From Pseudomonadota bacterium (GTDB lineage: Bacteria; Pseudomonadota; Alphaproteobacteria; Sphingomonadales; SMXR01), in contig JADFIA010000007.1 in the NCBI GenBank assembly GCA_022566895.1, positions 1-64,000 on the forward strand: a DNA stretch of 64,000 nucleotides, in the 5' to 3' direction. The position numbers and the translations under genes are program-made. The notes under the pieces were generated by a model, which saw only the letters and a program-made list of their open reading frames with translations, ran no database searches and was not told where the DNA came from. Positions 14,529-33,237 of the stretch are shown one piece after another; position 1 is the stretch's first letter, and the number at the start of each line of letters is the position of its first letter.

Positions 14529-16991
14529 TTATTCGTATCTCAAAGCCATGACCGGCGTGCGCCGCGCGATGCGCAGGGCGTGCGAGCCCACGGTCAGGGC
14601 CGCCAGGATCAGGCTGAAGATGCCGGCCACCATGAAGAAGATGAGAAATCCGGCTCCCTCGCCGATACGATCCGCGAAAAAATTGAGATACTGCTGCATG
14701 GCCAGATAAGCCAGCGGCCAGGCCAGAAGGTTGGCCAGAAACACCGGCTTTGAAAACTGCCAGACCAGCAATTGGGCAATCTGGGAGGTGGTGGCACCCA
14801 TGACCTTGCGGATGCCGATCTCCTTGGTGCGGGTCTCGGCGACGAAGGCGCTGAGGCCGAACAGGCCGGCGCAGGCAACCAAAAGGGCCAGGCCGGCAAA
14901 GCCCGCCACCGCCGTATTCATGCCCTGGAAAATTTTGAACAGAGCGTCGAACAGTTCATCCACCGAGGTGCGCTGTATGGGATAATCGGGGATGATCCGG
15001 CTCCAGACCTGGTCGATCTCGGCCACCGCCGCTTCCACGTTCCCTGTGGTCGGGCGAATCGTCAAATGGGAGAAGGCAGCCGGGCGCTGGACGAAAACCC
15101 ATGGCTTCATGTCGTTGAAAAAGCCCAGGAAATTGGCGTCTTCCATGACCCCGACGATGGTGTAGGAAGCCTGCCCCTCGAACCAATCAGAGAGCAGGGT
15201 CTGACCCAGAGCCATGGCCGGTGGGTCAAAACCAAGCCGCCGGGCGGCCAGGGCATTCATGATGATATTGACGCTGCCCTGCACTTCGCCGCCTTCTTCC
15301 TCGGGGTCAATCAGCAAATCGTTGGGGATGTCCGCTCTGAAATTCCTGCCTTCGAGCAGCTTGAGGCCGTAGGTGTCCAGATATTCCAGATCGACATACT
15401 TCATGTTCATGCCGACGCTGTCCTCGGCCACGCCACCGTCTTTCCAGAAACCCCTCCTATGGTGGTTTTGCTCGAAGGGAACCTGCGAGGAACCGGCCAC
15501 CGAGGCGACGCTGGGCAGGCGGGCGATTTCATCTTTCAGGGCGGTGTAGGATTCCTTGATGCCGTCCTGGTTCATCCTTTGAATGACGATCATATCCTCG
15601 TGGTGAAATCCGTAGTCCTGATCCCGCATATGACTGTTTTGCGCATAGATCACCAGCCCCGAGACGACCAGAAACACCGAAACGCCGAACTGGGTAACGA
15701 CCAGCGCCCGGCGCAGCAGTCCGGCCCGCTTGCCGGTCTTCATTTCGGCGGAAAGCGCTGTGGAACTGGGCAGGCGGGCCAGCAGAAACGCCGGGTAGCT
15801 GCCCGAAAGAAGACCCACAACTAGGGCCGTAGAGACCAGAAAGACAAGCGTTCCCAAATCCGTAAAGGGCGAGAAGGTTACACTCTTGTCCAAGGCCTGA
15901 TTGATCACCGGGACCAGATATTCGATCATCGCCAAAGCCAGGAACATGGCCAGGAGAGTCACTACAACCGCCTCGGTAAGAAACTGTGCAATAAGCTGCC
16001 GGGGTCTGGCGCCGAGGGTTTTGCGGATGCCCACCTCGCGGGCCCTTCCCATGGCCTGGGCCGTCGCCAGGTTGATAAAGTTAATAACCGCGACCACCAG
16101 GATCAGCCCACCCAGAATGCGCAGCACGGCCATGCCGGGGATGCCCGTAACCTGCCAGATCAGCAGATTCGCTTCCTTGACCGGGCGCAGAAAAAGATTG
16201 CTGATAAACTCTTTTCGCTTTTCGTCCGCGTGGCGCTGGTAAACAACATCGACCTTGTCGCTGACACCGGCTTTGGTTTCACCCTCGGCAAGCTTTATAT
16301 AGGTCCGGTCCGAGGTACTGAGGTCGAACCAAGTGCCTTCAATCGTTTCGTTCGATATCTGGGTGAGGGTCTGGGTCGAGGCCAGGATACCAAGCTTTGT
16401 GTCCTCGATGATGCTGAAAGAAAAATGACTGTTCGCAGGCAGATTGCGAATTACCGCGATCACCTCTACATCGGCCTTGGAGCTGAAGGTAAGGACCTTG
16501 CCCACCGCCGGCTCGTTGCCAAAAAAGCGCGCTGCGGCCTGCTCGGTCATGATCGCCGTATTGGGCCGCCTGAGGGCATCTTTCAGGTTGCCATCAACGG
16601 CCTCGAAGACAAAAATATCCAGGAATTCCGGATCGATGAACTGAACGTCCTGGTAAAACTGCAACTCACCCTGCCCGACCACAATCTCGCGGGCGTAGTA
16701 GCGGGCGATCACCGCGTCCGGGTTCTCCGCCCTATAAACCGGCGCAAAGGCGGAATTAACGCCGTTGATCTCGGGGACGCCGAATCCCGAGGCGGGATCG
16801 ATCTTCGAATAAACGACGTGGATGCGCTCAAAGTCCTTGAAAAAGGTGTCGTAGCTCTCCTCGTAGTCCGCGAAGATATTGGCCAGCACAAATCCCATCA
16901 GACCGATGGTCAGGCCGAACAGGTTGATGGCCAGGTGGGTCTTTTGCTTGATGATGTTGCGCAGGGCCACGGTGATGTAGTTTTTAAACAT
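14529..16991 (-). CDS. MacB/FtsX-type ABC transporter permease A (fourth of four)
   Basis: This 820-residue permease carries two copies of the MacB-periplasmic-core plus FtsX layout: an N-terminal helix (about 17-38), a periplasmic domain, three helices around 285-425, another helix near 430, a second periplasmic domain and three final helices around 690-810. Such proteins drive conformational work in the periplasm rather than classical transport. It is the most divergent of four paralogues in a row and ends with the shared C-terminal residues ALRYE. AAGGATG precedes the ATG. It is the last gene of the operon running from the adaptor at 26747, and its 3' end faces the cytochrome gene. Confidence 0.9.
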   Translation of the reverse strand: MFKNYITVALRNIIKQKTHLAINLFGLTIGLMGFVLANIFADYEESYDTFFKDFERIHVVYSKIDPASGFGVPEINGVNSAFAPVYRAENPDAVIARYYAREIVVGQGELQFYQDVQFIDPEFLDIFVFEAVDGNLKDALRRPNTAIMTEQAAARFFGNEPAVGKVLTFSSKADVEVIAVIRNLPANSHFSFSIIEDTKLGILASTQTLTQISNETIEGTWFDLSTSDRTYIKLAEGETKAGVSDKVDVVYQRHADEKRKEFISNLFLRPVKEANLLIWQVTGIPGMAVLRILGGLILVVAVINFINLATAQAMGRAREVGIRKTLGARPRQLIAQFLTEAVVVTLLAMFLALAMIEYLVPVINQALDKSVTFSPFTDLGTLVFLVSTALVVGLLSGSYPAFLLARLPSSTALSAEMKTGKRAGLLRRALVVTQFGVSVFLVVSGLVIYAQNSHMRDQDYGFHHEDMIVIQRMNQDGIKESYTALKDEIARLPSVASVAGSSQVPFEQNHHRRGFWKDGGVAEDSVGMNMKYVDLEYLDTYGLKLLEGRNFRADIPNDLLIDPEEEGGEVQGSVNIIMNALAARRLGFDPPAMALGQTLLSDWFEGQASYTIVGVMEDANFLGFFNDMKPWVFVQRPAAFSHLTIRPTTGNVEAAVAEIDQVWSRIIPDYPIQRTSVDELFDALFKIFQGMNTAVAGFAGLALLVACAGLFGLSAFVAETRTKEIGIRKVMGATTSQIAQLLVWQFSKPVFLANLLAWPLAYLAMQQYLNFFADRIGEGAGFLIFFMVAGIFSLILAALTVGSHALRIARRTPVMALRYE

Positions 16992-17028: not shown

Positions 17029-19494
17029 CTATTCGTAACGCAGGGCCTCGATCGGGCTCGAGCGGGCGACGCGCAGGGCATGCCCGGCGGTTGTCACCCA
17101 GGCCACAAACAGTGCGGCCAGCCCGGCGCCGACGAAATATCGCGGTCCGAGTTCGATGGTGAAGGCAAAGCCGTCAAGCCAGTCCCTCATGAAATAAAAT
17201 GCCACCGGCCAGGCGATCAGATTGGCGATCAGCACCGGCTTTGAAAATTGCCAGACCAGAAGACCCACGATGTTGGAGACGCTGGCGCCCATCACCTTGC
17301 GCAGGCTGATCTCGCGGGTCCGCCTTTCCACGGTGAAGGCCGAGAGACCGAAAAGGCCCAGCGAGCCCACGAGGACGGCCAAGCCGGCAAAAATCGCCAG
17401 CATTTGGCCGCGGCTCTCGTCGGCCGCAAAAAGCGCAGTCAGATTTTGATCGAGCGATACACGGGAAATCGGGATCTGGGGTACCAAATCGTTCCACATG
17501 CGATCGATATCGGCCAGAAATCCCGGCAGATCAGACGACTTGAAGCGCACGGTAATCGGGCCGGTGTCGTCCCGTTCGACAATATAGACCGTGGCCGGAG
17601 CCGTGTTCCTGGCCAGCTCGAAATGGGCATTATGCACGACGCCGATGATCGTCAAATCGGTCTGATTGGCGCCCACCGTAATCACAACTTGGCCCAGGGC
17701 ATCTTCGGGGCTGGCAAAGCCAAGGCGTTTCACGCCGGCCATATTGATCACCGCTGAGGCGGCTGATTTTTGGGGCGAGCCGTCATCTTCCTGAAAAATA
17801 TCGACGCTGCGCGCCGGATCGAAGGACCGCCCGGCAATCAGTGAGATGCCGTAGGTTTTGAAAAAATCGAAGTCGACGGCCAGTTGCGACATGACGATCG
17901 ACTGATTGTCCGGCTCACCGGGCCGACGGACCGAGAAATGCACCCAGCCGCTGTCTCCCGGTACGACCCCGGAGCGGGTCACAGACAAAACGTCTGGATG
18001 GCGCCGTAGCTGTTCCACAAGGGTGTCAGCGACCGGCTTGACTTCGTTGCGGCGTATCCCGTACAGGACCAGCATATTCTGGCGGATAAAGCCCGGCTCG
18101 AAATTCCGGGCGTAGCTGGTCTGCGCGTATATGACCGAAGTGGCGATCACAAGCCCGATCGAAATCGCGAACTGGATCACCACCAGAACTGTTCTCAGGT
18201 TTTTTGAACCCTCGCCACCGCTTGTGGTGGCGCCCAAAATGCGGGTTGGGCGGAAGGCCGACAGCACCAAGGCCGGATGGGCGCCGGCCCCCATCCCGAC
18301 CACCACTAACAGGCCTAACAGACCAACTTGGACAACCGGGTCGCCGGCAAACTGGGCGGCCATCAGCTTTTGAGAAAATTCATTGTACCAAGGCAAAGCC
18401 AGCTCAACCAGAGCCAGCGCCAATAAGGTGGCGAAACCGGTGATCAGGAAGGCTTCGCTCTGAAACTGAACGAACAGCTCGCGGCGGCTGGCGCCAACGA
18501 TTTTGCGGATCGCAACCTCTTTGGCCCGGCGGCTGGCGCGGGCCGTCGAAAGGTTGATAAAATTAATGCAGGCCACGGCAAGTATGAGACCGGCAATCGA
18601 CCCAAAGGCGATCAGAGTGGCGACGCTGCCCCGCGGTTTGATCGTCCCCCTCTCGCCCCCGTACAGATGGATATCCCTTGTATTTACCAGCTTGGGTGCG
18701 AACAGCTCGGAGCCGGTCATATTCATGCGATCCGTAATGCTGGTCGGGAAATGCCGGTCCATAAAGGGGTTCAGGCGCTCTCCGACCGCCGTCAAATCCG
18801 TTCCCTGGCGGAACCGAATGTAGGTATAAAATGATATGCTGCCCCAGCGCTCGAGCTGGTTTTGGCCTTCATCGGTTAGGAAATCGGCCGGATTAATCCG
18901 TATCACCGCATCGAGAATGAAATGGGTGTTGTTTGGCAGATCCTTTGTGACCGCTGTAACGCGGTAGTCGCGGGCGACGTCATAGACGATGGTCAGGGTC
19001 TTGCCGAGCGGCGAGCCTTGGCCAAAATATTTGCGCGCCATGGTCTCGCTGAGGACCACCGAGTTCGGGTCGGCCAGGGCCGTTGCGGCGTTGCCTTCGA
19101 GGAAGGGCACGTCGAAGACCTCAAAGAGAGTTGCGTCTGCAAACATGAACGAATCCAGGAACGAGCGGTCGCCGGCTGTAACGCCGACCGGATCATAAAA
19201 AAGTCGGGTCGCCGTTTGCGCTTCCGGAAAATCGGTCAAAAAGGCGTCTTTGAGAGGCGGCATCGATTGCGAAGTTACGAAACGGTCGCGCCCCGGAATA
19301 TTGGCCATCATCTCGACCCGGTAAATATTTTCCGCGCCCGGCAGCCAGCCGTCGTAACTGACCTCGTCCCTTATGAAAATCAGGATCAGGATGCAGGCGG
19401 CCAGGCCAATCGCCAGGCCGAGTATATTAATGGCCGAGAAGAGCCGTTGCCTGGCCATGCTGCGGAGCGCTGCGACGAGGTAATTTTTAAACAT
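17029..19494 (-). CDS. MacB/FtsX-type ABC transporter permease B (third of four)
   Basis: This 821-residue paralogue of its neighbours has the same plan: an N-terminal helix in a stretch like INILGLAIGLAACILILIF, a MacB-type periplasmic core (about 40-250), an FtsX block of helices (280-425), a second core and a final FtsX block, ending SSPIEALRYE. AAGGAG lies before the ATG. It lies 37 bp upstream of permease A and 43 bp downstream of permease C, so all are one transcript. Its last 30 or so codons are close at the DNA level to those of permeases C and D, consistent with duplication or gene conversion. Confidence 0.9.
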   Translation of the reverse strand: MFKNYLVAALRSMARQRLFSAINILGLAIGLAACILILIFIRDEVSYDGWLPGAENIYRVEMMANIPGRDRFVTSQSMPPLKDAFLTDFPEAQTATRLFYDPVGVTAGDRSFLDSFMFADATLFEVFDVPFLEGNAATALADPNSVVLSETMARKYFGQGSPLGKTLTIVYDVARDYRVTAVTKDLPNNTHFILDAVIRINPADFLTDEGQNQLERWGSISFYTYIRFRQGTDLTAVGERLNPFMDRHFPTSITDRMNMTGSELFAPKLVNTRDIHLYGGERGTIKPRGSVATLIAFGSIAGLILAVACINFINLSTARASRRAKEVAIRKIVGASRRELFVQFQSEAFLITGFATLLALALVELALPWYNEFSQKLMAAQFAGDPVVQVGLLGLLVVVGMGAGAHPALVLSAFRPTRILGATTSGGEGSKNLRTVLVVIQFAISIGLVIATSVIYAQTSYARNFEPGFIRQNMLVLYGIRRNEVKPVADTLVEQLRRHPDVLSVTRSGVVPGDSGWVHFSVRRPGEPDNQSIVMSQLAVDFDFFKTYGISLIAGRSFDPARSVDIFQEDDGSPQKSAASAVINMAGVKRLGFASPEDALGQVVITVGANQTDLTIIGVVHNAHFELARNTAPATVYIVERDDTGPITVRFKSSDLPGFLADIDRMWNDLVPQIPISRVSLDQNLTALFAADESRGQMLAIFAGLAVLVGSLGLFGLSAFTVERRTREISLRKVMGASVSNIVGLLVWQFSKPVLIANLIAWPVAFYFMRDWLDGFAFTIELGPRYFVGAGLAALFVAWVTTAGHALRVARSSPIEALRYE

Positions 19495-19537: not shown

Positions 19538-22030
19538 CTATTCGTAACGCAGGGCCTCGATGGGGCTCGAGCGGGCGACCCTCGTTGCGTGGCCGGCGAC
19601 CGTCGCCCAGGCCACGAACAGCGCCATGGCGCCGGCGGCGACAAAAAGGAACATCACAAACTCAATGCTCAGCCGCAGCTCAAAGCCCCGCAGCCAATCC
19701 ATCATGAAATATCCGGCCACTGGCCAGGCCACGAGATTGGCAACCAGCACCGGCTTCGAGAATTGCCAGACCAGCAAGCGGACAATGTCGAGAACCGAGG
19801 CGCCCAGAATCTTGCGAATTCCAATCTCCTTGGTTCTGCGGTCGGCGGCATAGGATGCCAGCCCGAACAGACCTAGGCAGGCCACAAAAACGGCCAGCCC
19901 GGAAAAGGCCGCAAAGAGCGTGAATTGCATGTCTTCAACCGCGTACTGCTGGCGGATCGTCTCATTCATGAACTCATATAAAAAGGGCACAGAAGGCGCG
20001 TGTTTCTTCCAGATCGTCTCGATCTGGCCGATCAGCTGGTCGACATTCTCAGTCGGCCTGTAGGCGATAGTGAGACTGTTGAACCGGCCCGGCGCGTTAA
20101 CATAATAGGTCGGCTGGACGCCGTATTTGAATGAGCGGAAGCGAAAATCCGGAACCACGCCAACGATTTCGAACACGCCTTCATCGGCCCCGAACGGCGT
20201 CGACGAGAACAGCGCGCCGAGCGCATCTTGCGGGCGCTTGAAACCCAATTGCCGGGTCGCAGACTTGTTGACCACCGCGGTGGCCCGCGCTTGCACTTCT
20301 GGGTCCGTAGAGGCGATGAACTCATCGGTGCCGAACTCACGGGAAAACGTGCGGCCAAAGAGCGGAGCAATTCCGTACGTCTCCATGAACCCATATCCAA
20401 CGCTGGCGACATTGAGAATAATATCGCCGCCTTCTTGCCGACCAAGCACGCGCAACAGATCCGTATTCTCGAAATTGTCGGTCGGCACGTCTGATGAAAG
20501 GGCGGCTGAGGTCATGCCCGGCAGGGCCAGAATATCGTTGATCATGGCGTTCTGGTTGTCGGCCACACCGGAACGGCCAATACCTCTGAGGATCAGTCGA
20601 TTTTCTTGTTCAAATCCGAGACTGCTGTTCTTGACCAATGAGGTCTGGGAATAGATGACAGCGGTGGCGACCACGAGGCCGATTGATATGGCAAACTGGG
20701 CAACCACGAGAAACAGGCGGATGCCGCTTTGTCCCTCCGGGTCAGCGGACTGATTGGCCTTTAGTATCCGGGCCGGTCGAAATCCCGACAGTACGACGGC
20801 CGGATAGATGCCACTGATCACTCCAGTGACCAGGGCGACCGCCAAGAGCCCGGCCAGGATTGAAGGTTCGGCCGCTACATTAAGCGCCAGCTGGCGCTGC
20901 AAAAAATCATTGTAGAGCGGCAGGGCCAGCTCGACCAATGCCAGCGCTAGGACAAAACCGATGAGCGTCACGATGATTGATTCGCCGATGAACTGCGAAA
21001 TCAACTGTTTTCGCCGGGCCCCCAGAACTTTTCTAAGCGAGACTTCCCGCGCTCGCTGTATGGCCCGTGCGGAGGCCAGATTCATAAAATTGATACTTGC
21101 GATCGCCAGCACCATTGCGGCCACGGACAACAGGGCATAAAGCGTCGTGCGATCGCCCAGCGGTCGCATGTCGCCCATATCGGATGCTTGGTCGCGTGCC
21201 TCAAGATGGATATCCGCCGCGCTGATGAAGGAGATGCCATAAAATTCATCAACCGAGCTGAACGGTGCGTTTTCCGGGATGGATATGTTGGCGCGCAGCA
21301 GCCGCATGATTCCGGCCTCGAGATCCTCCAGCGAAAATCCTTCGGCCAGGGTGAAATAGGTATAGACGTTGACCGAGGTCCAAGACTCAAGCATCGAGCC
21401 CATATTTCGGAAGGCCTCCCGATTGATCAGCGTGATGATGTCGAGATCCAAATGACTGTTGCGGGGGATGTCGCGGATGACACCGGTCACGCGCACTTCA
21501 ATGTTTTGACCGGCCAGGCAACAGATGGTCAGGGTTTGGCCGATTGCCGGTTCGTGCCCAAAGTATTTACCTGCCATGGTCTGGGAAAGCACGACCGAAG
21601 AGAGGTCGGGCAAGGCGGTTTCCTTGGAGCCCTCGGCGAAGGGCAAATCGAAGACATCGAAGAAGTTGGGATCGACCATACTGATCGATTCCTGGAATAC
21701 GTCGTCGTCCTTGAGGACGGTGGGGCTGATTTGAAGGATGCGCGTGACCTGGGCGGCTTCGGGGACGTTGTCCGGTACCGAATAAGCAATTCGGCCCGAT
21801 GAGCGCACGGTCCTGAAAGCCGGCCGGCCCGGCATGGTGAAGGTCGAGTGCATACGATAGATGCCGTCGCTGTCCGGCAGCCAGCTGTCGTAGCTGACCT
21901 CGTCGCGTACGAACAGCAGGATCAGAATGCAGGCGGCCAGGCCGACGGCCAGTCCGCCGATGTTGATGAAGGAATAGAGCTTGTGCCGTACTAACTGTCT
22001 GGCGGCGGTAATGAGATAGTTCTTAAACAT
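19538..22030 (-). CDS. MacB/FtsX-type ABC transporter permease C (second of four)
   Basis: This 830-residue permease has the double MacB_PCD-FtsX architecture described for this operon. The start at 22030 is preferred because it gives MFKNYLITAARQ, matching the N-termini of the paralogues, and has GAGGAAA in place. The frame stays open 294 bases further upstream, but that part overlaps permease D and reads as non-native. The FtsX signatures ARAIQRAREVSLRKVLGAR and RRTKEIGIRKILGASVLDIV are present in the two halves. The segment coding for the first membrane helix is nearly identical to that of permease D. Confidence 0.9.
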   Translation of the reverse strand: MFKNYLITAARQLVRHKLYSFINIGGLAVGLAACILILLFVRDEVSYDSWLPDSDGIYRMHSTFTMPGRPAFRTVRSSGRIAYSVPDNVPEAAQVTRILQISPTVLKDDDVFQESISMVDPNFFDVFDLPFAEGSKETALPDLSSVVLSQTMAGKYFGHEPAIGQTLTICCLAGQNIEVRVTGVIRDIPRNSHLDLDIITLINREAFRNMGSMLESWTSVNVYTYFTLAEGFSLEDLEAGIMRLLRANISIPENAPFSSVDEFYGISFISAADIHLEARDQASDMGDMRPLGDRTTLYALLSVAAMVLAIASINFMNLASARAIQRAREVSLRKVLGARRKQLISQFIGESIIVTLIGFVLALALVELALPLYNDFLQRQLALNVAAEPSILAGLLAVALVTGVISGIYPAVVLSGFRPARILKANQSADPEGQSGIRLFLVVAQFAISIGLVVATAVIYSQTSLVKNSSLGFEQENRLILRGIGRSGVADNQNAMINDILALPGMTSAALSSDVPTDNFENTDLLRVLGRQEGGDIILNVASVGYGFMETYGIAPLFGRTFSREFGTDEFIASTDPEVQARATAVVNKSATRQLGFKRPQDALGALFSSTPFGADEGVFEIVGVVPDFRFRSFKYGVQPTYYVNAPGRFNSLTIAYRPTENVDQLIGQIETIWKKHAPSVPFLYEFMNETIRQQYAVEDMQFTLFAAFSGLAVFVACLGLFGLASYAADRRTKEIGIRKILGASVLDIVRLLVWQFSKPVLVANLVAWPVAGYFMMDWLRGFELRLSIEFVMFLFVAAGAMALFVAWATVAGHATRVARSSPIEALRYE
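21876..21985 (-). repeat. Near-identical 110-bp segment, copy in permease C
   Basis: This stretch encodes the first membrane helix and following residues of permease C. It differs from the corresponding stretch of permease D (24428-24537) at only 3 of 110 positions by direct alignment, and one copy is not longer than the other. The rest of the two genes is clearly more diverged, which points to gene conversion or a recent local exchange. Confidence 0.85.
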
Positions 22031-22092: not shown

Positions 22093-24582
22093 CTATTCGT
22101 AACGCAGGGCCTCGATGGGGCTCGAGCGGGCTACCCGCGCGGCGTGAGCGGCGACCGTGACCCAGGCCACCAACAGCGCCAACAGCCCGGCGGCCGCGGC
22201 CATGACCGGCAGCACCGAGAGGTCGAGGCGATAGATAAAGCCGTCGAGCCAGCCGCTCATGAAATAGAAGGCCACCGGCCAGGCGATCAGATTGGCGATC
22301 AGCACCGGCTTGGAGAACTGCCACAAGAGCATCTTGACGATATCACCGACCGAGGCGCCCATAATCTTCCTGAGGCCGATCTCCTTGGTCCGGCGATCGG
22401 CGGCGAAGGAGGCCAGCCCGTAAAGCCCCAGACAGGCCACCAGGACCGCGAACAGCGCGAAGCCGGCGAACATTCTGGCCCGCTCGGCCTCGCGGGTGTA
22501 CAGGCTGGCAATGCGCTCGTCGACAAACTCGCGGGCTATTGGCACCTCGGGCACCAGCTGGGCCCATAGGTTGTCGATGGCGGCCAGGGTTTCGGTAATC
22601 TGACCGCCCTCGAGCTCGAGGCTCAGGTAATCGAGGTTCCGGTTCTCGGTGACGAAGAAAATCATCGGCGCCACGTCGAAGCGCACCGATCGCATGTGCA
22701 TATCGGGGATCACGCCGACGATGCGCGCATTGGCGGTGCTGGTCTGGTTGCTTACCAGTCCGATCCTGACCCTCAGGACCTGACCGATGGCGTCTTCAGG
22801 GGTCAGGGCGCCGATGCGGCTGAGGCTCGATTGGTTGATGATGACGCCGATATTGATCACCTGATCAGGCGCGATATCGTCCCGCTGAGGCCGCAGGTCA
22901 CCGCGGAAATCCTCGCTGAACAGCCGGCCGGCCAGGGGCTCGACCCCGTAAAGTTCAAAAAAGCCGATACCGACCGACATTTGCTCGATCACCAGGGGCT
23001 CGCTGCCCTGACCCTGCGGCGGCTCAACGATGGTGTTGTTGTTGGAGCGCTGCGGGATCGAATCGCTGGCGTAGGCGACGCCTTTGACGCCCGGCAATTT
23101 AGCCATTTCAAGGCCGATGGTGGCGGCCTTGGCTTGAATCTGATCGTCTCGCAGACCCTGCAGGGTCAGCTTCTGGCTTTTGTCGAAGCCGAGATTCATC
23201 GACTGGGCGTAGATCATTTGCCCATAGACCACCCCGGTCGAAAGGATAAGGCCGATCGAAATCGCGAACTGCAGTACGACCAGACCGCTGCGCACCTTCG
23301 AGCCGCTGTCGGATGCCGACGTAGCGGAGTGCAGAACCCGGGCCGGGCGGAAGTTCGAGAGCACAAAGGCCGGGTAACTGCCGCTGATGACGCCGACAAG
23401 CACGATCAGGGCAACCAGACCGCCGGCCAACCAGGGGTCGGTGAACAGACTGAGCTCGAGCGTCTTGCCCAGAAAATCGTTGTACGCCGGCAGCGCCAGT
23501 TCGACCATCGCCACGGCGACCACAAGCGCCAGGATCGAGGTGACCGTGGCTTCACCCAAAAACTGTTTGATCAGTTGCCCGCGCCGCGCCCCCAGGACCT
23601 TGCGCATGCTCACCTCGCGGGCCCGTTGCAGGGCCCGGGCGGTGGCCAGGTTCATGAAATTGATGCAGGCGATCAACAGGATCAGCCCGGCCACGGCCGA
23701 GAAGATATAGACGGCAGCGATGCTGCCGGGCGGTTTCATGCCGCCGGCCTTGGTCGCATGCAGATGAATGTCGGGCACCGAAATGAAATCGAAGGCCAAG
23801 ATATCGCTGGGCGTATCGACGGGAAAGCCGGGAATTTGGATGACCGCGCTGGCGTCGACGAAATCCTTCGCCGCCGCGTTGATCTCGTCGACCGAGACGC
23901 CCGGCGCCGTCTTGATATAGGTATGGACGTTGGCGCTGAGCCAGCTCTCGGCTACCCAGGGCTGGTCGGTGTAGCGGTTCAAATCGAAATAGGCGATAAA
24001 ATCGATCACCAGATGGCTATTCGAGGGAATATCCTTGAATACGCCGACAACCTTGTAATCGGTCTCGTTATCGAAGGTGATGGTCTTGCCCACCGCCGGC
24101 TGGCGGCCGAAAAACTTCTCGGCCATCGCCTCCGAGAGGATCAGCGAGGTGCTGTCACGGACCGCGGCTTCGCGCTCGCCGACCACCATCGGCAAGGAGA
24201 ACAGTTCGAAGAAATTGTCGTCGACGTAGGTCACCCTCTCGTTGAAGGTGCGGTCGCCGGTCGACATGCTGTGGCCGGTCCGATAAATGCGCGCCGCTTC
24301 CTCGATCTTGCCCGCGAAATAGCTCAGCAGTGGATCGCGGGCCGGCCCCGGCGTGTTGACAAAGGCCAGCGGCGCCCGTCCCGGCGGATAGAAGGTGGCT
24401 TCCATGCGGTGCACGCGTTCGATCCCGGGCAGCCAGCTGTCGTAGCTGACCTCGTCGCGCACGAACAACAGGATCAGAATGCAGGCGGCCAGGCCGACGG
24501 CCAGTCCGCCAATGTTGATGAAGGAATAGAGCTTGTGTCTTGAAATGTGCCTGATGGCGGTTTTGATGTAGCTGCTCAGCAT
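22093..24582 (-). CDS. MacB/FtsX-type ABC transporter permease D (first of four)
   Basis: This 829-residue permease is the first of the four, following the ATPase gene by 94 bp. Its order is a membrane helix (about 20-40), a MacB-type periplasmic core, an FtsX helix block with ARALQRAREVSMRKVLGARR just before it, a second core and the last FtsX block after RRTKEIGLRKIMGASVGDIV. A strong GAGGAGGT lies before the ATG. The ATPase and adaptor upstream are single-copy, so the four permeases must share them, either as alternative homodimers or as mixed dimers. The substrate cannot be read; MacB-like pumps handle peptides, macrolides or lipids, and others remodel the cell wall. Confidence 0.91.
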   Translation of the reverse strand: MLSSYIKTAIRHISRHKLYSFINIGGLAVGLAACILILLFVRDEVSYDSWLPGIERVHRMEATFYPPGRAPLAFVNTPGPARDPLLSYFAGKIEEAARIYRTGHSMSTGDRTFNERVTYVDDNFFELFSLPMVVGEREAAVRDSTSLILSEAMAEKFFGRQPAVGKTITFDNETDYKVVGVFKDIPSNSHLVIDFIAYFDLNRYTDQPWVAESWLSANVHTYIKTAPGVSVDEINAAAKDFVDASAVIQIPGFPVDTPSDILAFDFISVPDIHLHATKAGGMKPPGSIAAVYIFSAVAGLILLIACINFMNLATARALQRAREVSMRKVLGARRGQLIKQFLGEATVTSILALVVAVAMVELALPAYNDFLGKTLELSLFTDPWLAGGLVALIVLVGVISGSYPAFVLSNFRPARVLHSATSASDSGSKVRSGLVVLQFAISIGLILSTGVVYGQMIYAQSMNLGFDKSQKLTLQGLRDDQIQAKAATIGLEMAKLPGVKGVAYASDSIPQRSNNNTIVEPPQGQGSEPLVIEQMSVGIGFFELYGVEPLAGRLFSEDFRGDLRPQRDDIAPDQVINIGVIINQSSLSRIGALTPEDAIGQVLRVRIGLVSNQTSTANARIVGVIPDMHMRSVRFDVAPMIFFVTENRNLDYLSLELEGGQITETLAAIDNLWAQLVPEVPIAREFVDERIASLYTREAERARMFAGFALFAVLVACLGLYGLASFAADRRTKEIGLRKIMGASVGDIVKMLLWQFSKPVLIANLIAWPVAFYFMSGWLDGFIYRLDLSVLPVMAAAAGLLALLVAWVTVAAHAARVARSSPIEALRYE
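24428..24537 (-). repeat. Near-identical 110-bp segment, copy in permease D
   Basis: This is the partner of the segment at 21876-21985, with three mismatches in 110 aligned bases. It encodes the first membrane helix region, including GGLAVGLAACILILLFVRD. It is coding sequence, not an independent mobile repeat. Confidence 0.85.
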
Positions 24583-24676: not shown

Positions 24677-25366
24677 TTATTCGGCCGCCCGCAGACTTTC
24701 TGTGACCACGTGACCGTCAAACAGATTGATCGTGCGGCGGGCGTGTTCGGCATGGGTCGGCGAGTGCGTGACCATCAGGATCGTCGTGCCCTGCTTATTC
24801 AGCTCGTGCAGCATCGCCATCACTTCTTCGCCGTGCACCGAATCCAGGTTACCGGTCGGCTCATCGGCCAGGATCAGGTGCGGATTGGCGACCACCGCGC
24901 GGGCCACGGCGACCCGCTGTTGCTGACCGCCCGAGAGCTGCGACGGCATGTGACCGGCCCGATGGGCGATGCCCATGCGCTCCATCACCTCAACAACCCG
25001 TTGCCGGCGCTCCTTGGCCGAAACGTCGCTGTGATAGAGCAGCGCAAGTTCTATATTTTCCTGCACCGTCAGCTCGTCGATCAGGTTAAAGCTCTGGAAA
25101 ATAAAGCCGATGTTTTGCTTGCGAATGTCGGCCAGCTTGCTCTCGGAGTATCCGGCAATATCCTCGTCGAGGAAAAAGAAGTTCCCCGAGCTCGGATTAT
25201 CGAGCATGCCGATGATATTGAGGAGGGTCGATTTCCCGCAACCCGATGGCCCCATGACGGCCACGAATTCCCCTTTTTTGATCTCGATATTGACCTTGTT
25301 AAGGGCCGTGGTCTCGACCTCGTCGGTTTGGTAGATTTTGGTGATGTCATTCATTCTGATAAGCAT
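24677..25366 (-). CDS. ABC transporter ATP-binding protein, MacB/LolD type
   Basis: This 229-residue cytoplasmic ATPase powers the permeases encoded downstream. The Walker A motif GPSGCGKST is at about residues 39-47, the Q-loop is in FIFQSFNLI, the signature is LSGGQQQR, Walker B is LILADEPTGNLD and the switch His is in VTHSPTH. This pattern and size are those of the MacB/LolD/FtsE class that pairs with FtsX-type permeases. It follows the adaptor gene by 46 bp. It is the only ATPase in the operon, so four permeases depend on one nucleotide-binding protein. Confidence 0.94.
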   Translation of the reverse strand: MLIRMNDITKIYQTDEVETTALNKVNIEIKKGEFVAVMGPSGCGKSTLLNIIGMLDNPSSGNFFFLDEDIAGYSESKLADIRKQNIGFIFQSFNLIDELTVQENIELALLYHSDVSAKERRQRVVEVMERMGIAHRAGHMPSQLSGGQQQRVAVARAVVANPHLILADEPTGNLDSVHGEEVMAMLHELNKQGTTILMVTHSPTHAEHARRTINLFDGHVVTESLRAAE

Positions 25367-25412: not shown

Positions 25413-26747
25413 CTAGGAACTCAGCTCCAGCCGGTCCATGTCGATATAGTTGGTGTAGGGCGAAGTGATGACCTTCTCGCCCTTCTCCAGTCCCTCGAGC
25501 ACCTCGATGTAGCGCATGTTCCGCCGACCCAGGCGGATGTTGCGGCGGATCGCCTGGCTACCGTCGGAGGAGACCACGAAGATCCAGTTGCCGCCGGTAT
25601 CTTGGTAAAAGGCGCCGTTGGGGATTAACAAGGCAGCGCTGGGATCGCCCAGTTGCAGCCGGGTTTGCAGGGTTTGACCCCGCCGGATATTGGGTGGCGT
25701 CTGCCCTTGGAAAATCATGTCCACCTCGAACTGTCCGTTGCGGACCTGGGGGTAGACCTTGGAAATTTTGAGTTGGTAGCTGGTGCCGCCCAGGTTCATC
25801 TGGGCGGTCTGTTCGATATCGACCCGGCCGAGATAGAACTCGTCGATATTGGCCGACAGCTTGAAGCGCTCGGGATCGTCGATTTGTCCGATCCGCTCGC
25901 CCTGGCCCAGCGACTGGCCGATCTCGACATCGAAAGCGGTCAGCTTACCGGCCATCGGTGCCGTAACATTAAGGCCGTCGAGGTTGCCGCGGGCCACCAG
26001 GAGATTTCTCTCAAGCTGCTGGCCGGCCTGCCGCAGTTGGTTCATCTGGATTTTCTGCAGCCGCTCGTCGGTGGCCTGGCTCTCAAGCGTCACGGTGCGG
26101 CGGTTGATGAAATAGTCGTATTCGTCCTGGGCGTCTTCGAGCAGCCGCTTGGGTGTATGTCCGGCCGCGACCAGGGGCGTATAGCGGTCGACCAGACGCC
26201 CCAGGCGGATGATCTGATAATCGATCTCAACCAGGTTGCGCTTGTGATCGAGGCGGTTCTGCTCGAGCGCCAGCTCGATATTGCGCAGGTTATTCAATTG
26301 CTCGGTGACTTCGGCCTCGCGGCTGATGACGTCGAGCTGCAGGCCGGTGTTCGACAAATCGACCAGCCTCTGGTCCTTGGTGACAAAGGCTCCATCCTCG
26401 ACATAGATGGCCTCGACCCGGCCGCCTTCGATCGCATCGAGGAAGATCGTTTTCAATGGCGTCACCCGGCCGCGGACCGGAATAAAATCGTCAAACTGGC
26501 CGGATGTGACTTGGGAGACGACGATCCGCTGGCTGTCGACTTTGAGCGTCCGGCCGCCGCCGGGGCTGAAAATGGTCAGCATTGAAATCACCGCCACGAC
26601 CACGCCGCCGGCGATCAGGCCCGGTTTCAGGTATTTTTGATATTTTGACTTTTCGATCCGGCGGTCCATACCCGACTGGGATACGTCGCCCAAAGAAGAT
26701 TTACCCGGCTTGCGGTCCATGTTCATCGATGTAATTTCGGCCGTCAT
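25413..26747 (-). CDS. HlyD/MacA-type periplasmic adaptor (membrane fusion protein)
   Basis: This 444-residue adaptor is the first gene of the ABC operon. It has a cytoplasmic N-terminus of about 38 residues, one membrane helix (about 42-62), then a beta-barrel/lipoyl half, a long helical hairpin (about residues 135-260, rich in Leu, Gln, Glu and Arg), the second lipoyl half (VTAPMAGKLTAFDVEIGQSL) and a C-terminal membrane-proximal domain (VVSSDGSQAIRRNIRLGRRN). Such proteins link inner-membrane transporters to a TolC-like channel; none is encoded nearby. The predicted sigma-54 promoter lies about 60-75 bases upstream of its ATG. Confidence 0.9.
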   Translation of the reverse strand: MTAEITSMNMDRKPGKSSLGDVSQSGMDRRIEKSKYQKYLKPGLIAGGVVVAVISMLTIFSPGGGRTLKVDSQRIVVSQVTSGQFDDFIPVRGRVTPLKTIFLDAIEGGRVEAIYVEDGAFVTKDQRLVDLSNTGLQLDVISREAEVTEQLNNLRNIELALEQNRLDHKRNLVEIDYQIIRLGRLVDRYTPLVAAGHTPKRLLEDAQDEYDYFINRRTVTLESQATDERLQKIQMNQLRQAGQQLERNLLVARGNLDGLNVTAPMAGKLTAFDVEIGQSLGQGERIGQIDDPERFKLSANIDEFYLGRVDIEQTAQMNLGGTSYQLKISKVYPQVRNGQFEVDMIFQGQTPPNIRRGQTLQTRLQLGDPSAALLIPNGAFYQDTGGNWIFVVSSDGSQAIRRNIRLGRRNMRYIEVLEGLEKGEKVITSPYTNYIDMDRLELSS

Positions 26748-26808: not shown

Positions 26809-26824
26809 AGCAAAAGTGATGCCA
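26809..26824 (-). promoter_or_regulatory. Sigma-54 (-24/-12) promoter of the adaptor-ATPase-permease operon
   Basis: Read on the minus strand the sequence is TGGCAT-N5-TTGCT, matching the RpoN consensus TGGCAC-N5-TTGC(A/T) at every key base, including the invariant GG and GC with correct 10-bp spacing. It points at the adaptor gene, with an expected transcript start near 26798 and a leader of about 50 bases. A sigma-54 activator is encoded immediately on the other side, which makes a chance match unlikely. Confidence 0.82.
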
Positions 26825-26967: not shown

Positions 26968-28368
26968 ATGGATGGCAAGACCGGCAGTGTTTTGATCGTA
27001 GATGACGACGAGGATATCCTGGTCGCCGGGCAGATGCTCTTGAAGCGCCATTTCGAGACCGTGGCCACGGCCAACCGGCCCGAGCACATCCCCAAGCTTT
27101 ACCAGGGACGCAGCTTCGACGCGGTGCTTCTGGATATGAATTTCGGGGCCGGCGAAACCTCGGGTAGCGAAGGCCTCGAATGGCTAAAGAACATCCTCAA
27201 GCTGGATCCGGATGCGGTGGTCATCCTGATCACTGCCTATTCGACGGTCGACACCGCGGTCGAGGCCATGAAGCTGGGGGCGACCGATTTTATCGAGAAG
27301 CCGTGGCAGAACGAAAAGCTGATCGCGACCCTTAAAGCGGCCGTGCGGTTTCGCCAATCGCGCAACGAGGCCAAAGTCCTCAAACAGACCAACCGCGTGT
27401 TGGTCGAAGAGATCAGCCGCCCCAGCCAACCGATCCTCGGCACCTCGCCGGCTATCAAGCAGGTCTTGAACCTGATCGAACGGACGGCGCCGACCGATGC
27501 CAACGTTTTGATCCTCGGCGAAAACGGCACCGGCAAAGAGCTGGCGGCGCACGAAATTCACCGCCAGTCCGAGCGGGCCGATAAGGTCTTTTTGACGGTC
27601 GATCTGGGCTCGATCGCCGAAACGCTTTTTGAAAGCGAATTGTTCGGCCACAAAAAAGGCGCCTTTACCGACGCCCGCGAGGACCGGGTCGGACGCTTTG
27701 AGGCGGCTGACGGCGGCACCGTTTTCCTCGATGAGATCGGCAATATTCCGCTGCATCTCCAGGCCAAGCTTCTGGCCGTTCTCGAACAGCGCACGGTCAC
27801 CCCGGTCGGCTCTAATCAGGCGGTGCCCTTCGATGTGCGGATAATCAGCGCCACCAACGTGCCGGTGCACAAACTTTCCGACGAGTCGATTTTTCGCCAG
27901 GATCTTCTTTACCGGCTGAATACGGTCGAGGTGCATCTGCCGTTGCTCCGAGACCGCCGCGAGGATATCCCGAAGCTCGCCGACGCCTTCGTCAAGCAAT
28001 ACGCGCGCCGATACGGCCGCCCGGTCACCGGGGTCAGCCAGGCGGCGCTCGATCAGCTGACCGACTACACCTGGCCCGGCAATGTGCGGGCCCTGAGACA
28101 CGCGGTCGAACGCGCGGTCATTCTTTCCGAGAGCCAGGAACTGCAGCCCGAGGACTTCCAGCTGCGCCCGGCCAGCGGTCACCAGGCGGCCGCCGCGGCT
28201 GCTCAATTGGGCGCCGCCGGGGCCCAAGAAGTGACGCTCGAGGAAATGGAGCACCAGGTTATCGACAGGGTGCTGCGCCAACACAAGGGCAATATTTCAC
28301 GGGCCGCCAAGCAGCTCGGGATCACCCGCACCTCCTTGTACCGGAGGATGGAAAAATATGGTCTTTAG
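26968..28368 (+). CDS. Sigma-54-dependent response regulator, NtrC family
   Basis: This 466-residue protein has three domains: a receiver domain (1-125, acidic pocket DDDED at 12-16, phosphoacceptor Asp56, Lys111), an AAA+ ATPase domain (about 155-385, Walker A GENGTGKE at 184-191, Walker B VFLDEIGN at 252-259) and a Fis-type helix-turn-helix (about 437-460). The sigma-54 contact loop reads GAFTDA (231-236) instead of the commoner GAFTGA. The ATG at 26968 begins directly at the receiver domain; 86 further open codons upstream cross the control region and are rejected. It overlaps the kinase gene by 11 bp and should activate the divergent ABC operon. Confidence 0.93.
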   Translation: MDGKTGSVLIVDDDEDILVAGQMLLKRHFETVATANRPEHIPKLYQGRSFDAVLLDMNFGAGETSGSEGLEWLKNILKLDPDAVVILITAYSTVDTAVEAMKLGATDFIEKPWQNEKLIATLKAAVRFRQSRNEAKVLKQTNRVLVEEISRPSQPILGTSPAIKQVLNLIERTAPTDANVLILGENGTGKELAAHEIHRQSERADKVFLTVDLGSIAETLFESELFGHKKGAFTDAREDRVGRFEAADGGTVFLDEIGNIPLHLQAKLLAVLEQRTVTPVGSNQAVPFDVRIISATNVPVHKLSDESIFRQDLLYRLNTVEVHLPLLRDRREDIPKLADAFVKQYARRYGRPVTGVSQAALDQLTDYTWPGNVRALRHAVERAVILSESQELQPEDFQLRPASGHQAAAAAAQLGAAGAQEVTLEEMEHQVIDRVLRQHKGNISRAAKQLGITRTSLYRRMEKYGL

Positions 28369-29710
28369 GCATTTTACGTTCGACATCATCAAGCGGCTGA
28401 CGGCGCTGGTCCTGACCATGGCCGCCTTCGTCTATGTGGTCACCGAAAAATCCTTCTACATGTCGGCCACGCTGCTGGCGCTTTTTGCCATCGGCCAGGT
28501 CTATATGCTGTTTCGCCAGGTCGATCGCACCAACACCGAGTTGACGCGCTTTTTGAACGCCATCCGCTACGGTGATTTCCTGCAGTCGTTTTCGATCGAG
28601 CATCTGGGTTCGAGCTTTGCCGATCTCAACGAAGCCTTCGATGATATCATGGCGCGCTTCCGCAAGGCCCGGTCCGAAAAGGAAGTCCAGGCGCGCTACT
28701 TAAGCGCCCTTGTGGACCATGTGCCGGTGGCGCTTCTGGTGATCCACAGCGACGGCAAGATCGATCTGCTGAACAACGCCGCCCGCCGACTCCTGAACAC
28801 GCCGAATCTAGCTCCGGTCTCGGAGCTGCATCAATACGGGCCGGCCTTCCAGCGCGATATCGCCCAGACCAAGGCCGGCGAGAAAAAGCTGACGCGGCTG
28901 GTCGAAGACGAGCTCGAGCGCCACCTGGTCATGTCGACCACCCAGATCACGGTCGGCGGCGATGCCCAGCGCATCGTGGCGCTGCAAGATATCCAGAGCG
29001 AATTGGATGCCACCGAACTGACCGCCTGGCAGGATCTGGTGCGTGTGCTTTCGCACGAGATCATGAATTCGGTCACCCCGATCGCCTCGCTGGCCCGCAC
29101 AGCCAGCGATCTGGTGGACGAGATTTCGGACCCGGCGGTCGGCGACAAGATAAAGCCGGTCGATCTCAAGGATATCAGGGATTCGGTGCGCACGGTGGCG
29201 CGGCGCAGCGAGGGCCTGATGCATTTCGTGCAAAGCTACAAGCAGCTCACCCAAATGCCGCCGCCGAAGCTCTCGAAGACGAACCTCAAGGAGTATCTCG
29301 AGCGCCTCAAAACACTGATGCAGGCCGAATGGAAGGGGCAGGGGATCTCCTTCCAGCTCAGCGTTGAGGGCGACAATCTTGTGCTGATGGCCGATACGGA
29401 GCTTCTCGACCAGGTTCTGATCAACCTGTTGCGGAACGCCGCCCACGCGGTCGCCGACAGCAAGGTCAAACAGGTCCGGGTGCGCAGCCGCATGAACGAG
29501 CGCAGCCGTATCACCATCGACGTCGAGGACAGCGGCCCGGGCATCAAGCCCGAGCACGCCGAAAAGATTTTCCTGCCCTTCTTCACCACCAAGCCGGACG
29601 GTTCCGGGGTGGGTCTGTCGCTGGCCCGCCAGATCATGCTGGTGCACCGCGGCAATATCTCGGCCGGGCCGGGCGAGCTCGGCGGCGCCCGCTTTCGCCT
29701 GACCTTTTAG
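28358..29710 (+). CDS. Sensor histidine kinase, NtrY/NtrB-like
   Basis: This 450-residue membrane kinase has two helices at about 10-29 and 34-52 with almost no periplasmic loop between them, so it may sense within the membrane or from the cytoplasm. A HAMP-like linker is followed by a PAS domain (about 115-215), a phosphoacceptor helix with LSHEIMNSVTP (His233) and the ATPase domain, with an N-box LINLLRNAAHAV, DSGPGI and the SGVGLSLA loop. GGAGG inside the regulator gene precedes the ATG, and the genes overlap, so the pair is coupled. It presumably phosphorylates the upstream NtrC-type regulator. Confidence 0.93.
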   Translation: MVFRHFTFDIIKRLTALVLTMAAFVYVVTEKSFYMSATLLALFAIGQVYMLFRQVDRTNTELTRFLNAIRYGDFLQSFSIEHLGSSFADLNEAFDDIMARFRKARSEKEVQARYLSALVDHVPVALLVIHSDGKIDLLNNAARRLLNTPNLAPVSELHQYGPAFQRDIAQTKAGEKKLTRLVEDELERHLVMSTTQITVGGDAQRIVALQDIQSELDATELTAWQDLVRVLSHEIMNSVTPIASLARTASDLVDEISDPAVGDKIKPVDLKDIRDSVRTVARRSEGLMHFVQSYKQLTQMPPPKLSKTNLKEYLERLKTLMQAEWKGQGISFQLSVEGDNLVLMADTELLDQVLINLLRNAAHAVADSKVKQVRVRSRMNERSRITIDVEDSGPGIKPEHAEKIFLPFFTTKPDGSGVGLSLARQIMLVHRGNISAGPGELGGARFRLTF

Positions 29711-30411: not shown

Positions 30412-31500
30412 ATGACGGAAATCCTGCTTTTGGGTGGCGGCCGGATCGGCCAGACAATCGCCGCGTTTTTGGCCGGGTCCGGCGACTACCGGGTGACCGT
30501 GGCCGACCACGATAAGGACAATCTTAGGCCATTCGCCGGGCTCGAGAATATCGAATCTATGGTCCTCGATTTTGCCGATCCGGCGGCGCTTGGGGCGGCC
30601 ATGCAGGACAAATTTGCGGTCCTCTCGGCGGCCCCCTATCAGCTCAACCAGACCATCGCCACGGCGGCCAAGGCGGCCGCCATCCACTATCTCGATCTGA
30701 CCGAGGATGTGGCGAGCGCCCGCCACGTCAAGGGCCTGGCCGAGGGTTCGAAAACGGCTTTCATCCCGCAGTGCGGTTTGGCGCCGGGCTTCATTTCGAT
30801 CGTCGCCTACGATCTGACCAAGAACTTCGACGCGCTGCACGACGTACGCCTGCGGGTCGGAGCGCTGCCGCAATATCCGACCAACGCGCTCAAGTACAAT
30901 CTGACCTGGAGCACCGAAGGCCTGATCAATGAATATATCAATCCCTGCGAGGCCATCGTCGAAGGCGAGCGGCGCGAAATGCCGGCCCTCGGCGGCCGCG
31001 AGGAGTTTCTCCTCGACGGCATTGCTTACGAGGCCTTCAATACGTCGGGCGGCATCGGTACCCTGGGCGAGACGCTCAAGGGCAAGGTGCGCAACCTCAA
31101 TTACCGGACCATCCGCTATCCCGGCCACCGGGATCTGGTAAGGCTCCTGATCCGCGATCTGCGGCTCGGCCAACGGCCGGATCTCCTGAAGGAGATTTTC
31201 GAGCTGGCGCTGCCGATGACCTACCAGGACATGGTTGTCGTTTTCGCCACCGTGATCGGCAAGAAAGGCCAGCGTATCGAACAGGAGAGTTACGCCCGCC
31301 GCATCCACGCCCGCGAAATCGACGGTCGCCAGTGGACGGCGATCCAGATTACCACCGCCTCGGGCATATGCGCGGTATTGGATTTACTGGCCCAGGGCAA
31401 AATACGCGATCACGGCCTGGTCCGTCAGGAAGAGATCGATTTTAAAGATTTCATCACCAACCGATTTGGCGCAAACTACGCCTTTCCGGGGGACCGCTAG
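30412..31500 (+). CDS. Saccharopine dehydrogenase-family protein, probable lysine 6-dehydrogenase
   Basis: This 362-residue NAD(P)-dependent oxidoreductase has an N-terminal Rossmann motif LLLGGGRIGQTIAAFLA (residues 5-21), an acidic VADHD at the end of the second strand, and the catalytic-domain stretch CGLAPGFISIVAYDL typical of the LYS9/lysine 6-dehydrogenase family. These enzymes act at the epsilon-amine of lysine or on saccharopine, giving aminoadipate semialdehyde. The ALDH7-type gene two positions downstream would then oxidise that product to aminoadipate. GGAGG sits six bases before the ATG. Reductive dehydrogenases of related amino acids are the alternative. Confidence 0.8.
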   Translation: MTEILLLGGGRIGQTIAAFLAGSGDYRVTVADHDKDNLRPFAGLENIESMVLDFADPAALGAAMQDKFAVLSAAPYQLNQTIATAAKAAAIHYLDLTEDVASARHVKGLAEGSKTAFIPQCGLAPGFISIVAYDLTKNFDALHDVRLRVGALPQYPTNALKYNLTWSTEGLINEYINPCEAIVEGERREMPALGGREEFLLDGIAYEAFNTSGGIGTLGETLKGKVRNLNYRTIRYPGHRDLVRLLIRDLRLGQRPDLLKEIFELALPMTYQDMVVVFATVIGKKGQRIEQESYARRIHAREIDGRQWTAIQITTASGICAVLDLLAQGKIRDHGLVRQEEIDFKDFITNRFGANYAFPGDR

Positions 31501-31551
31501 GCGCGTTAGGGGCCGCAGGGCCCCGACCGGGCCAACGACAGGGCATTGCAA

Positions 31552-33237
31552 ATGGGCATCAAAACCAGCGCCGAAGCGCTTGTGGCGACACTTCTGGCGC
31601 ATGGCACCAGTCTGGCCTTCTGCGTGCCCGGCGAGAGCTATCTGGCGGTTCTCGATGCGCTTTACGATGTCGGCGATCGCCTGAAGCTGATCGCTTGCCG
31701 GCACGAAGCGGGAGCGGCCAATATGGCCGCGGCCTACGGCCGCATGACCGGTCGGCCCGGCATTTGTTTGGTTACCAGGGGCCCCGGAGCCACCCAGGCC
31801 AGTGTCGGCGTCCATACCGCCTTCCACACTTCGGTGCCGATGATCCTTTTCATCGGCCAGGTGCGGCGCCAACACCAAGGCCGCGAGGCCTTCCAGGAGG
31901 TCGACTTCGAAGCCATGTTCGCACCGATCGCCAAATCGGTGGTCACGCTCGATCGTCCCGAGGAAATCTCAGGGATCGTGGCGGCAGCTTTTCGCGATGC
32001 CATGAGCGATCGGCCGGGCCCGGTGGTCGTCGTGCTGCCCGAAGATGTGCTGCCCCTCGAGTTTAAAGGCCGGACGGTTAATCCTCTGACCATGTTGCGC
32101 CATGGACCCCAGCCTCACCAGGTCGAAGAGGCGGCTAGGATGCTCTCACAGGCCGCCCGGCCGCTGGTCATCGTCGGCGGTCATCTGTCGGAGCTCCATG
32201 GCTGGCAAGCCTTGGCCAAACTCGTCAAACAGGCAGAGATTCCGGTCGCCGCCTCGTTCCGCAGCCAGGACTATTTCGACAACCGGCACCCGAACTACGT
32301 CGGTGATCTCGGCTTCGGCAAGAACCCGGCACTCGTAGAACGGATCAGGGATGCCGACCTGATCCTGGCTTTGGGCAGCCGCCTCGGCGATATCACCACC
32401 GACGGCTATACGCTTCTTGTGCCGCCCGAACCGGACCAGAAATTGATCCATGTGCATGTTGACCCCAAGGAGTTGGGCCGGGTTTACAGGCCGCATCTTG
32501 CCATCCGTGCCGAGGCGCGGCTGTTTATTGAAGCCCTGGCCGGGGCCGGGATTGAGGGGGCCGAAAAGCGCCGCAACTGGCGCCGGGCCCTGCGCCGCGA
32601 CTACGAGATATGGATCGAGCCGCAGCCCAACCCGGGGAAAGTGCAGCTGGGAGAGATTTTCGCCAGCCTCAATGCCCTGCTGCCGGATGATGCCGTGGTC
32701 ACCAATGGAGCCGGCAATTATACCGGCTGGCTGCACCGCTACTACCAGCACCGGCAGCCGGGAACCCAGCTGGCGCCCAAGTCCGGGGCCATGGGCTTTG
32801 GTCTGCCGGCGGCGATCGCGGCCAAGTTGGCCGCCCCCGGTCGGGCCGTGGTGGCGGTGGCCGGCGACGGCTGTTTTTTGATGGCCGCTCCGGAACTGGC
32901 CACGGCGGTGCAATATGGGGCGCCGATCGTGGTCATGGTGATCAACAACTCGATGTACGGAACTATCCGCATGCACCAGGAACTTCACTATCCGGGCCGG
33001 GTATTGGGGACCGATCTCGAGAACCCGGACTTTGCAGCGCTGGCCCGCTCGTTCGGCGCCAACGGCGTAACCATCCGCCGAACACAAGAGTTTGGCCGCG
33101 CCTTCAAAGCCGCGCTCAAGGCCGACAAACCGACAGTTATGGACATAATCGTTGATCCCGATGCCATCAGTACCCAGATCACCCTATCGGATTTGCAGAA
33201 CACCCTGAGCGCCGCCCCGGCAGCAGCAAAGGAATGA
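31552..33237 (+). CDS. Thiamine pyrophosphate enzyme, acetolactate synthase large-subunit-like
   Basis: This 561-residue three-domain TPP enzyme has a PYR domain with the cofactor-activating Glu in CRHEAGAANMAAAYGR, a central domain with VIVGGH and ALGSRLGD, and a PP domain with the metal site GDGCFLMAAPELATAV and VVMVINNS. It resembles acetolactate synthase and related carboligases or decarboxylases, but no small regulatory subunit is nearby. Its position between the lysine dehydrogenase-like and ALDH7-type genes suggests a role with a 2-oxo acid in lysine breakdown; that is inference. The ATG at 31552 is used; a TTG six bases earlier is possible. Confidence 0.85.
   Translation: MGIKTSAEALVATLLAHGTSLAFCVPGESYLAVLDALYDVGDRLKLIACRHEAGAANMAAAYGRMTGRPGICLVTRGPGATQASVGVHTAFHTSVPMILFIGQVRRQHQGREAFQEVDFEAMFAPIAKSVVTLDRPEEISGIVAAAFRDAMSDRPGPVVVVLPEDVLPLEFKGRTVNPLTMLRHGPQPHQVEEAARMLSQAARPLVIVGGHLSELHGWQALAKLVKQAEIPVAASFRSQDYFDNRHPNYVGDLGFGKNPALVERIRDADLILALGSRLGDITTDGYTLLVPPEPDQKLIHVHVDPKELGRVYRPHLAIRAEARLFIEALAGAGIEGAEKRRNWRRALRRDYEIWIEPQPNPGKVQLGEIFASLNALLPDDAVVTNGAGNYTGWLHRYYQHRQPGTQLAPKSGAMGFGLPAAIAAKLAAPGRAVVAVAGDGCFLMAAPELATAVQYGAPIVVMVINNSMYGTIRMHQELHYPGRVLGTDLENPDFAALARSFGANGVTIRRTQEFGRAFKAALKADKPTVMDIIVDPDAISTQITLSDLQNTLSAAPAAAKE

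Follow-up and report, generated by a model that had tools for sequence, protein, structure and literature searches.

An operon for an FtsX-type ABC exporter, within the 64,000-nucleotide stretch of DNA analysed here (the window), is preceded by a predicted sigma-54 promoter and two enhancer palindromes, and this paired signal very probably defines a regulon. Genome comparison bears out the predicted promoter, the enhancer sites, their geometry and the content of the regulon. Taken as a whole, a regulatory core of this kind joined to a shared exporter is the reading we favour with reasonable confidence.

A predicted sigma-54 promoter with tandem enhancer sites

Hallmarks of sigma-54 (RpoN) promoters are GG at -24, GC at -12 and binding sites for an activator some 80-150 bp upstream. 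The minus strand at 26824-26809 carries TGGCATCACTTTTGCT, that is TGGCAT-CACTT-TTGCT, which matches the consensus perfectly, has GG at -24 and GC at -12 with the correct spacing, and is oriented toward the adaptor gene, whose ATG lies at 26747. This is the element that the initial annotation had proposed, together with a transcript start near 26798; the element is confirmed, and taking the C at 26810 for position -12 predicts a start at the same place.

Two perfect TGTnCG-N4-CGnACA palindromes are located between this element and the divergent regulator gene. Read on the minus strand, the proximal copy (TGTGCGCTGACGTACA, 26915-26900) lies 91 bp upstream of the promoter element and the distal copy (TGTTCGAAAACGTACA, 26936-26921) 112 bp upstream, the two copies being 21 bp apart. 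An NtrC-type activator such as the divergent regulator would be expected to bind here; position and co-occurrence appear to link the sites to that regulator. Five perfect copies occur in the whole assembly. Apart from these two, there is one on contig C72, and two of the remaining three perfect sigma-54 elements are each accompanied by a copy at the right distance. The enhancer sites and the wider regulon had been missed in the initial annotation, and we judge them to be the more interesting part.

Counted alone, the 16-mer is near chance genome-wide. The perfect pattern TGGCAY-N5-TTGCW has a single match in the window, at 26809-26824, and four in the 2.15-Mb, 86%-complete assembly, which holds one rpoN gene; the reversed-pattern control gave three. 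Matches with up to two mismatches were fewer in the window (34) than in shuffled sequence (48). Scoring of the -24/-12 element by itself did not rise above chance, and it was dropped and replaced by conservation and enhancer sites.

Homologous loci were retrieved from relatives of the same order using the adaptor protein alone, yielding 29 upstream regions. A scan of such loci had been suggested in the initial annotation, and the sigma-54 element was present at all 29, perfect at 26 and with one mismatch at three. Each locus also carries palindromes, two or three in number and spaced in helical phase. In shuffled upstream regions, 0.02 loci had a perfect element and 0.37 loci at least two palindromes. 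The element thus stands above chance because two perfect palindromes lie upstream of it and because the whole arrangement is kept at each homologous locus. In a larger set of 107 promoters, which is partly pattern-selected so that the unbiased evidence consists of the first 29 loci and the permease-selected loci, enhancer-promoter distances peak at 55, 68, 79, 88, 99 and 109, in steps of about 10.7 bp, and the mirror-image arrangement occurs once. Gammaproteobacterial homologues keep the tandem palindromes and have a weaker -12.

These observations bear on the simplest alternative, in which the 16-mer arose by chance and an ordinary promoter serves the operon. In its favour, the number of perfect matches in the genome, four, is close to the control count. 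It leaves the fixed geometry at 29/29 loci and the accompanying palindromes unaccounted for, however, and no good sigma-70-type promoter was found in the region; we consider it extremely improbable. The predicted promoter and its enhancer sites are almost certainly genuine, and the sequence comparisons give strong support to reading the element as a sigma-54 promoter that responds to the adjacent activator.

The exporter operon and its divergent regulatory genes

Domain matches agree with the one adaptor, one ATPase and four permeases that had been annotated behind the promoter, all on the minus strand, and are sufficient to establish the fold class. The periplasmic adaptor (25413-26747) is of the HlyD/MacA type and DarC-like, with matches to HlyD_3 (2.1e-11), to the DarC model NF038010 (224.1 bits, cut-off 450) and to MacA structures (9e-12). 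The ABC ATPase (24677-25366) is of the DarD/MacB/LolD type and matches ABC_tran (1.5e-34) and the DarD model NF038007 (269.8 bits, cut-off 375). Each permease has two MacB_PCD plus FtsX repeats: permease 1 (829 aa, 22093-24582), permease 2 (829 aa, 19538-22027), permease 3 (821 aa, 17029-19494) and permease 4 (820 aa, 14529-16991). The listed open reading frame of permease 2 begins earlier, at 22324; homology and spacing favour a start at about 22027.

Because the intergenic gaps measure 37-94 nt, the gene order is conserved and no internal enhancer sites occur within the operon, a single transcript through the whole 12.2 kb is plausible. The earlier claim that the promoter drives the entire operon is upheld for the promoter itself, by its conservation at 29/29 loci, and is plausible only as regards a full-length transcript. 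In one relative (G001), an internal sigma-54/enhancer signal lies between permeases 1 and 2 (L043, ~4678-4779).

On the plus strand, a sigma-54-dependent response regulator (26968-28368; Sigma54_activat 7.5e-64) is followed by a sensor histidine kinase (28358-29710), in agreement with the divergent activator and dedicated two-component pair described in the initial annotation. The regulator has the receiver with its phospho-acceptor region, the sigma-54 AAA+ domain and the Fis-type helix-turn-helix of the NtrC type (bEBP). Its sigma-54 contact loop, canonically GAFTGA, reads GAFTDA in this activator and in most alphaproteobacterial relatives and GAFTGA in several. GAFTDA is among the variants expected to stay active in the D. 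vulgaris regulome (PMC4641369). In NorR, the corresponding change (G266D) relieves repression by the sensor domain, yet the protein still activates (PMC2941729). By analogy, GAFTDA may alter control rather than abolish activation.

The kinase has two transmembrane helices (residues 10-28 and 33-51) separated by a few residues, and a weak PAS match in its cytoplasmic part. This layout is that of intramembrane-sensing kinases, taken here as having two helices, an extracytoplasmic loop of less than about 25 residues and no other outside input domain. Two helices with a tiny loop were found in the kinases of every relative checked, and the layout is conserved across alpha- and gammaproteobacteria. 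The "envelope response" put forward in the initial annotation would fit a sensor of this type.

The divergent module of kinase-regulator and adaptor-ATPase-permease genes is kept in relatives, where the number of permeases varies from 1 to 5 or more; Emcibacter is among the relatives named in another collection. One genome has a second adaptor-ATPase copy without a kinase-regulator pair alongside (L061, relative G010). Beside the kinase in the window, at 30412-33237, are saccharopine-dehydrogenase-like and acetolactate-synthase-like genes, both kept there at two other loci (L038 and L055) and occurring singly at two more (L052 and L053); these neighbours probably belong to unrelated metabolism.

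A regulon beyond the operon

The combined palindrome-promoter pattern was found in 47 of 251 genomes of the order, and its reversed control in none. It occurs in 27 of the 32 genomes with the adaptor and in 0 of the 29 without it (Fisher 2e-12). This distribution matters for a second alternative, in which the palindromes serve another regulator, such as a global protein of the NtrC family, and the neighbouring pair acts on different targets. Some homologous operons do have the signal without the pair alongside (L092 and L093); in nearly all other loci, however, the pair is adjacent and divergent, and the signal is absent from genomes that lack the adaptor module, so that we regard control by another protein as very unlikely, and continue with the adjacent regulator as the probable partner of these sites.

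In relatives, the genes behind the sites comprise the exporter operon, about 30 orphan double-FtsX permeases, TolC/OEP genes in four genomes (L140, L143, L148 and L150), an S41 peptidase (L141), membrane-anchored M61-type metallopeptidases with HExxH (L190 and L196) and a short peptide. A TolC-type partner under the signal was not seen in the genome studied here. A search for tandem palindromes that did not require a promoter gave 15 additional sites; at each, a sigma-54-like element lay 99-111 bp away, followed by a permease or M61 peptidase gene. Conversely, among 22 further orphan permeases fetched by permease homology, 12 carry the signal. The ten that do not include the best ADOP matches, the sixth permease of this genome (contig C25) and the second genes of tandem pairs; therefore, not every such permease belongs to the regulon. 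In this genome, the signal stands 49 bp before an orphan 821-aa double-FtsX permease on contig C29 (L088:2660-5125), with no ABC ATPase in the 12 kb examined around it.

A short cationic peptide under the same signal

Within one group, four genomes have the signal in front of a 31-42-aa open reading frame of the form MxFLxxV...RRxRRY with a conserved CGACAGCGAGGA leader. A fifth locus was obtained by searching for the promoter-leader pattern, and a sixth peptide, MAFLNEVIRPDTTEKKKPAAASQTGFCRRRTRRYK, with a profile of the five (E 3.8e-8); the sixth locus, found by similarity alone, likewise shows a perfect sigma-54 element, with two palindromes at the distances seen elsewhere. The RRxRRY family thus has loci L158, L160, L161, L165, L181 and L255, all in relatives. 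Differences between two orthologues are distributed 18:5:4 over third, first and second codon positions (18 of 27 at the third), and such third-codon-biased change indicates that the peptide is translated; on these sequence grounds, we treat it as both translated and co-regulated. No occurrence was found beyond one genus-level group and none was seen in this genome, and no described family matching the peptide turned up in the searches.

A related site lies on contig C75 of this genome (L089:6903-6918), where a perfect sigma-54 element and two palindromes are accompanied by the CGACAGCGAGGA leader. No clear open reading frame lies behind it and no ATG follows the leader; a frame of 22 residues that starts with GTG and ends in arginines is conceivable, though unsupported. 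A terminator-like hairpin at ~7105-7150 would limit the transcript to about 215 nt, so that it ends before a tRNA-Lys gene at 7257. The site is possibly a small RNA or a decayed peptide gene; a search of Rfam with this site and the peptide loci matched the tRNA alone.

The peptide raises a third alternative: the system might be a secretion apparatus chiefly for this self-made product, or for another natural product, as in darobactin export, with the peptidases serving as leader or maturation proteases. Such a role would agree with DarC, DarD and DarB of the darobactin exporter being the closest named families, with six genomes that carry a peptide gene behind such a promoter and enhancers (one identified from similarity alone), and with the signs of translation. 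It is difficult to reconcile with a peptide limited to one genus-level group when the exporter is widespread. Moreover, no modification enzymes stand beside the peptide gene in the stretches examined, neither a double-glycine nor a signal-type leader is evident in the peptide, and all Dar models score under their cut-offs. We consider self-product export unlikely.

Proposed mechanism

We propose instead that a single tripartite FtsX-type ABC exporter is the centre of a regulon, which the kinase-regulator pair (26968-29710) governs by way of RpoN. Upon a signal, the regulator would be phosphorylated, would bind the two palindromes, which lie some 9 and 11 turns of the helix upstream, and would drive open-complex formation at 26809-26824. 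Transcription from about 26798 would then proceed through the adaptor, the ATPase and the four double-FtsX permeases. Binding by the neighbouring regulator and co-transcription of the full operon are what we infer from the arrangement of sites and genes. Copies of the signal at other places in the chromosome would induce additional permeases that lack an ATPase of their own, one of them in this genome (contig C29). In relatives, they would also induce TolC-type channels, the short cationic peptide and peptidases of the membrane or periplasm.

One ATPase and one adaptor would be common to interchangeable permeases, giving a family of MacB-like pumps. Sharing of the ATPase among permeases is somewhat favoured by the common signal. 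Other ABC ATPases could also power the orphan permeases. The fullest form of the proposal is a chromosome-wide, sigma-54-wired modular exporter, in which one adaptor-ATPase pair is combined with changeable, scattered orphan permeases, TolC, peptidases and the RRxRRY peptide, all co-induced by the intramembrane-sensing pair. We hold this form at slightly less than an even chance; if true, it accounts for orphan permeases that lack ATPases.

The pumps would act on amphipathic or peptide substrates at the inner membrane or in the periplasm, perhaps peptides or lipophilic compounds, and envelope or peptide stress, detected by the intramembrane-sensing kinase, would bring about induction. We advance this peptide/envelope-stress function tentatively. 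A closely matched prospect, also short of even, is detoxification or resistance, in which the permeases bind antimicrobial peptides or lipophilic toxins of competitors and the kinase senses flux, as in the Bce modules of Firmicutes, whose logic has been described (PMC3023708, PMC10314905). A two-helix kinase with a very short loop beside FtsX-type permeases, conserved in alpha- and gammaproteobacteria, points in this direction, as do the co-regulated peptidases and the number and diversity of permeases within one genome (as many as 24 in G060), which would suit many substrates. The comparison is weakened by the lack of a large BceB-type permease with ten helices and by a regulator of the NtrC rather than the OmpR type.

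Relation to known systems

The proposed exporter most resembles that of darobactin, DarB/DarC/DarD, which likewise has a separate adaptor, ATPase and long FtsX-type permease and provides the best NCBIfam matches for all three subunit kinds. The scores nevertheless fall far below the cut-offs, not only for NF038007 and NF038010 as given above but also for NF038008 (137 at best, cut-off 700), and the present operon differs in its four permeases, its sigma-54 two-component control and the absence of a darobactin gene cluster alongside.

MacAB-TolC shares the MacA-like adaptor, the MacB periplasmic core with FtsX domains and, in relatives, a co-controlled TolC-type channel. MacB has a fused N-terminal ATPase and one four-helix FtsX unit, whereas here the ATPase is a separate gene and the permeases are double-length, each with a pair of FtsX domains and a pair of core domains, and several accompany one ATPase. 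The acidobacterial duplicated orphan permeases (ADOP, TIGR03434) are also duplicated proteins of about 800 aa with many scattered orphans; the permeases described here score 250-317 bits against that model (273-302 for the four of the operon), under its cut-off of 622.3, and here the orphans carry the regulatory signal of one ATPase-adaptor operon.

With regard to regulation, the enterobacterial QseEF/GlrKR sigma-54 envelope regulon (glmY, rpoE) also combines a two-component sigma-54 activator with palindromic upstream sites, TGTC-N10-GACA in that case (PMC8745638), and serves envelope homeostasis (PMC6075780). The sites here are TGTnCG-N4-CGnACA, the targets are others and the kinase is of the intramembrane-sensing type. 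Bce-type modules (BceRS-BceAB) pair such a kinase with an FtsX-type ABC permease (PMC3023708, PMC10314905), but employ an OmpR-type regulator and a single ten-helix BceB permease, in contrast to the sigma-54 control, adaptor, TolC and many permeases found in the present family.

The initial annotation had not recognised a described system in this arrangement. That judgement needs qualification in one respect, as predicted sigma-54 promoters before FtsX-type permeases (COG0577) were reported in a 2025 survey for other classes, namely gammaproteobacteria, Opitutia and Bacteroidia; the part of that report considered here gives no enhancer sites, cognate regulator or orphan-permease regulon (PMC12316311). 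The text of PMC3162934 consulted makes no mention of ABC transporters, FtsX or MacB. In the literature searched, of which PMC12316311 comes closest, no published account was found of the enhancer code, the cognate intramembrane-sensing pair, the shared orphan-permease regulon or the peptide, and to this extent the judgement stands.

Implications

The predicted regulon adds a gram-negative, RpoN-driven counterpart of Bce-type sensing, and its DNA signature can be used for mapping the regulon in any genome. The accompanying peptides form a new small family, which would be either cargo or regulator. To our knowledge, no explanation has been given for the duplicated FtsX-type permeases without ATPases that are common in several phyla. 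A highly specific shared signal ties many such orphan permeases to one ATPase-adaptor operon, which offers a testable answer to what powers them.
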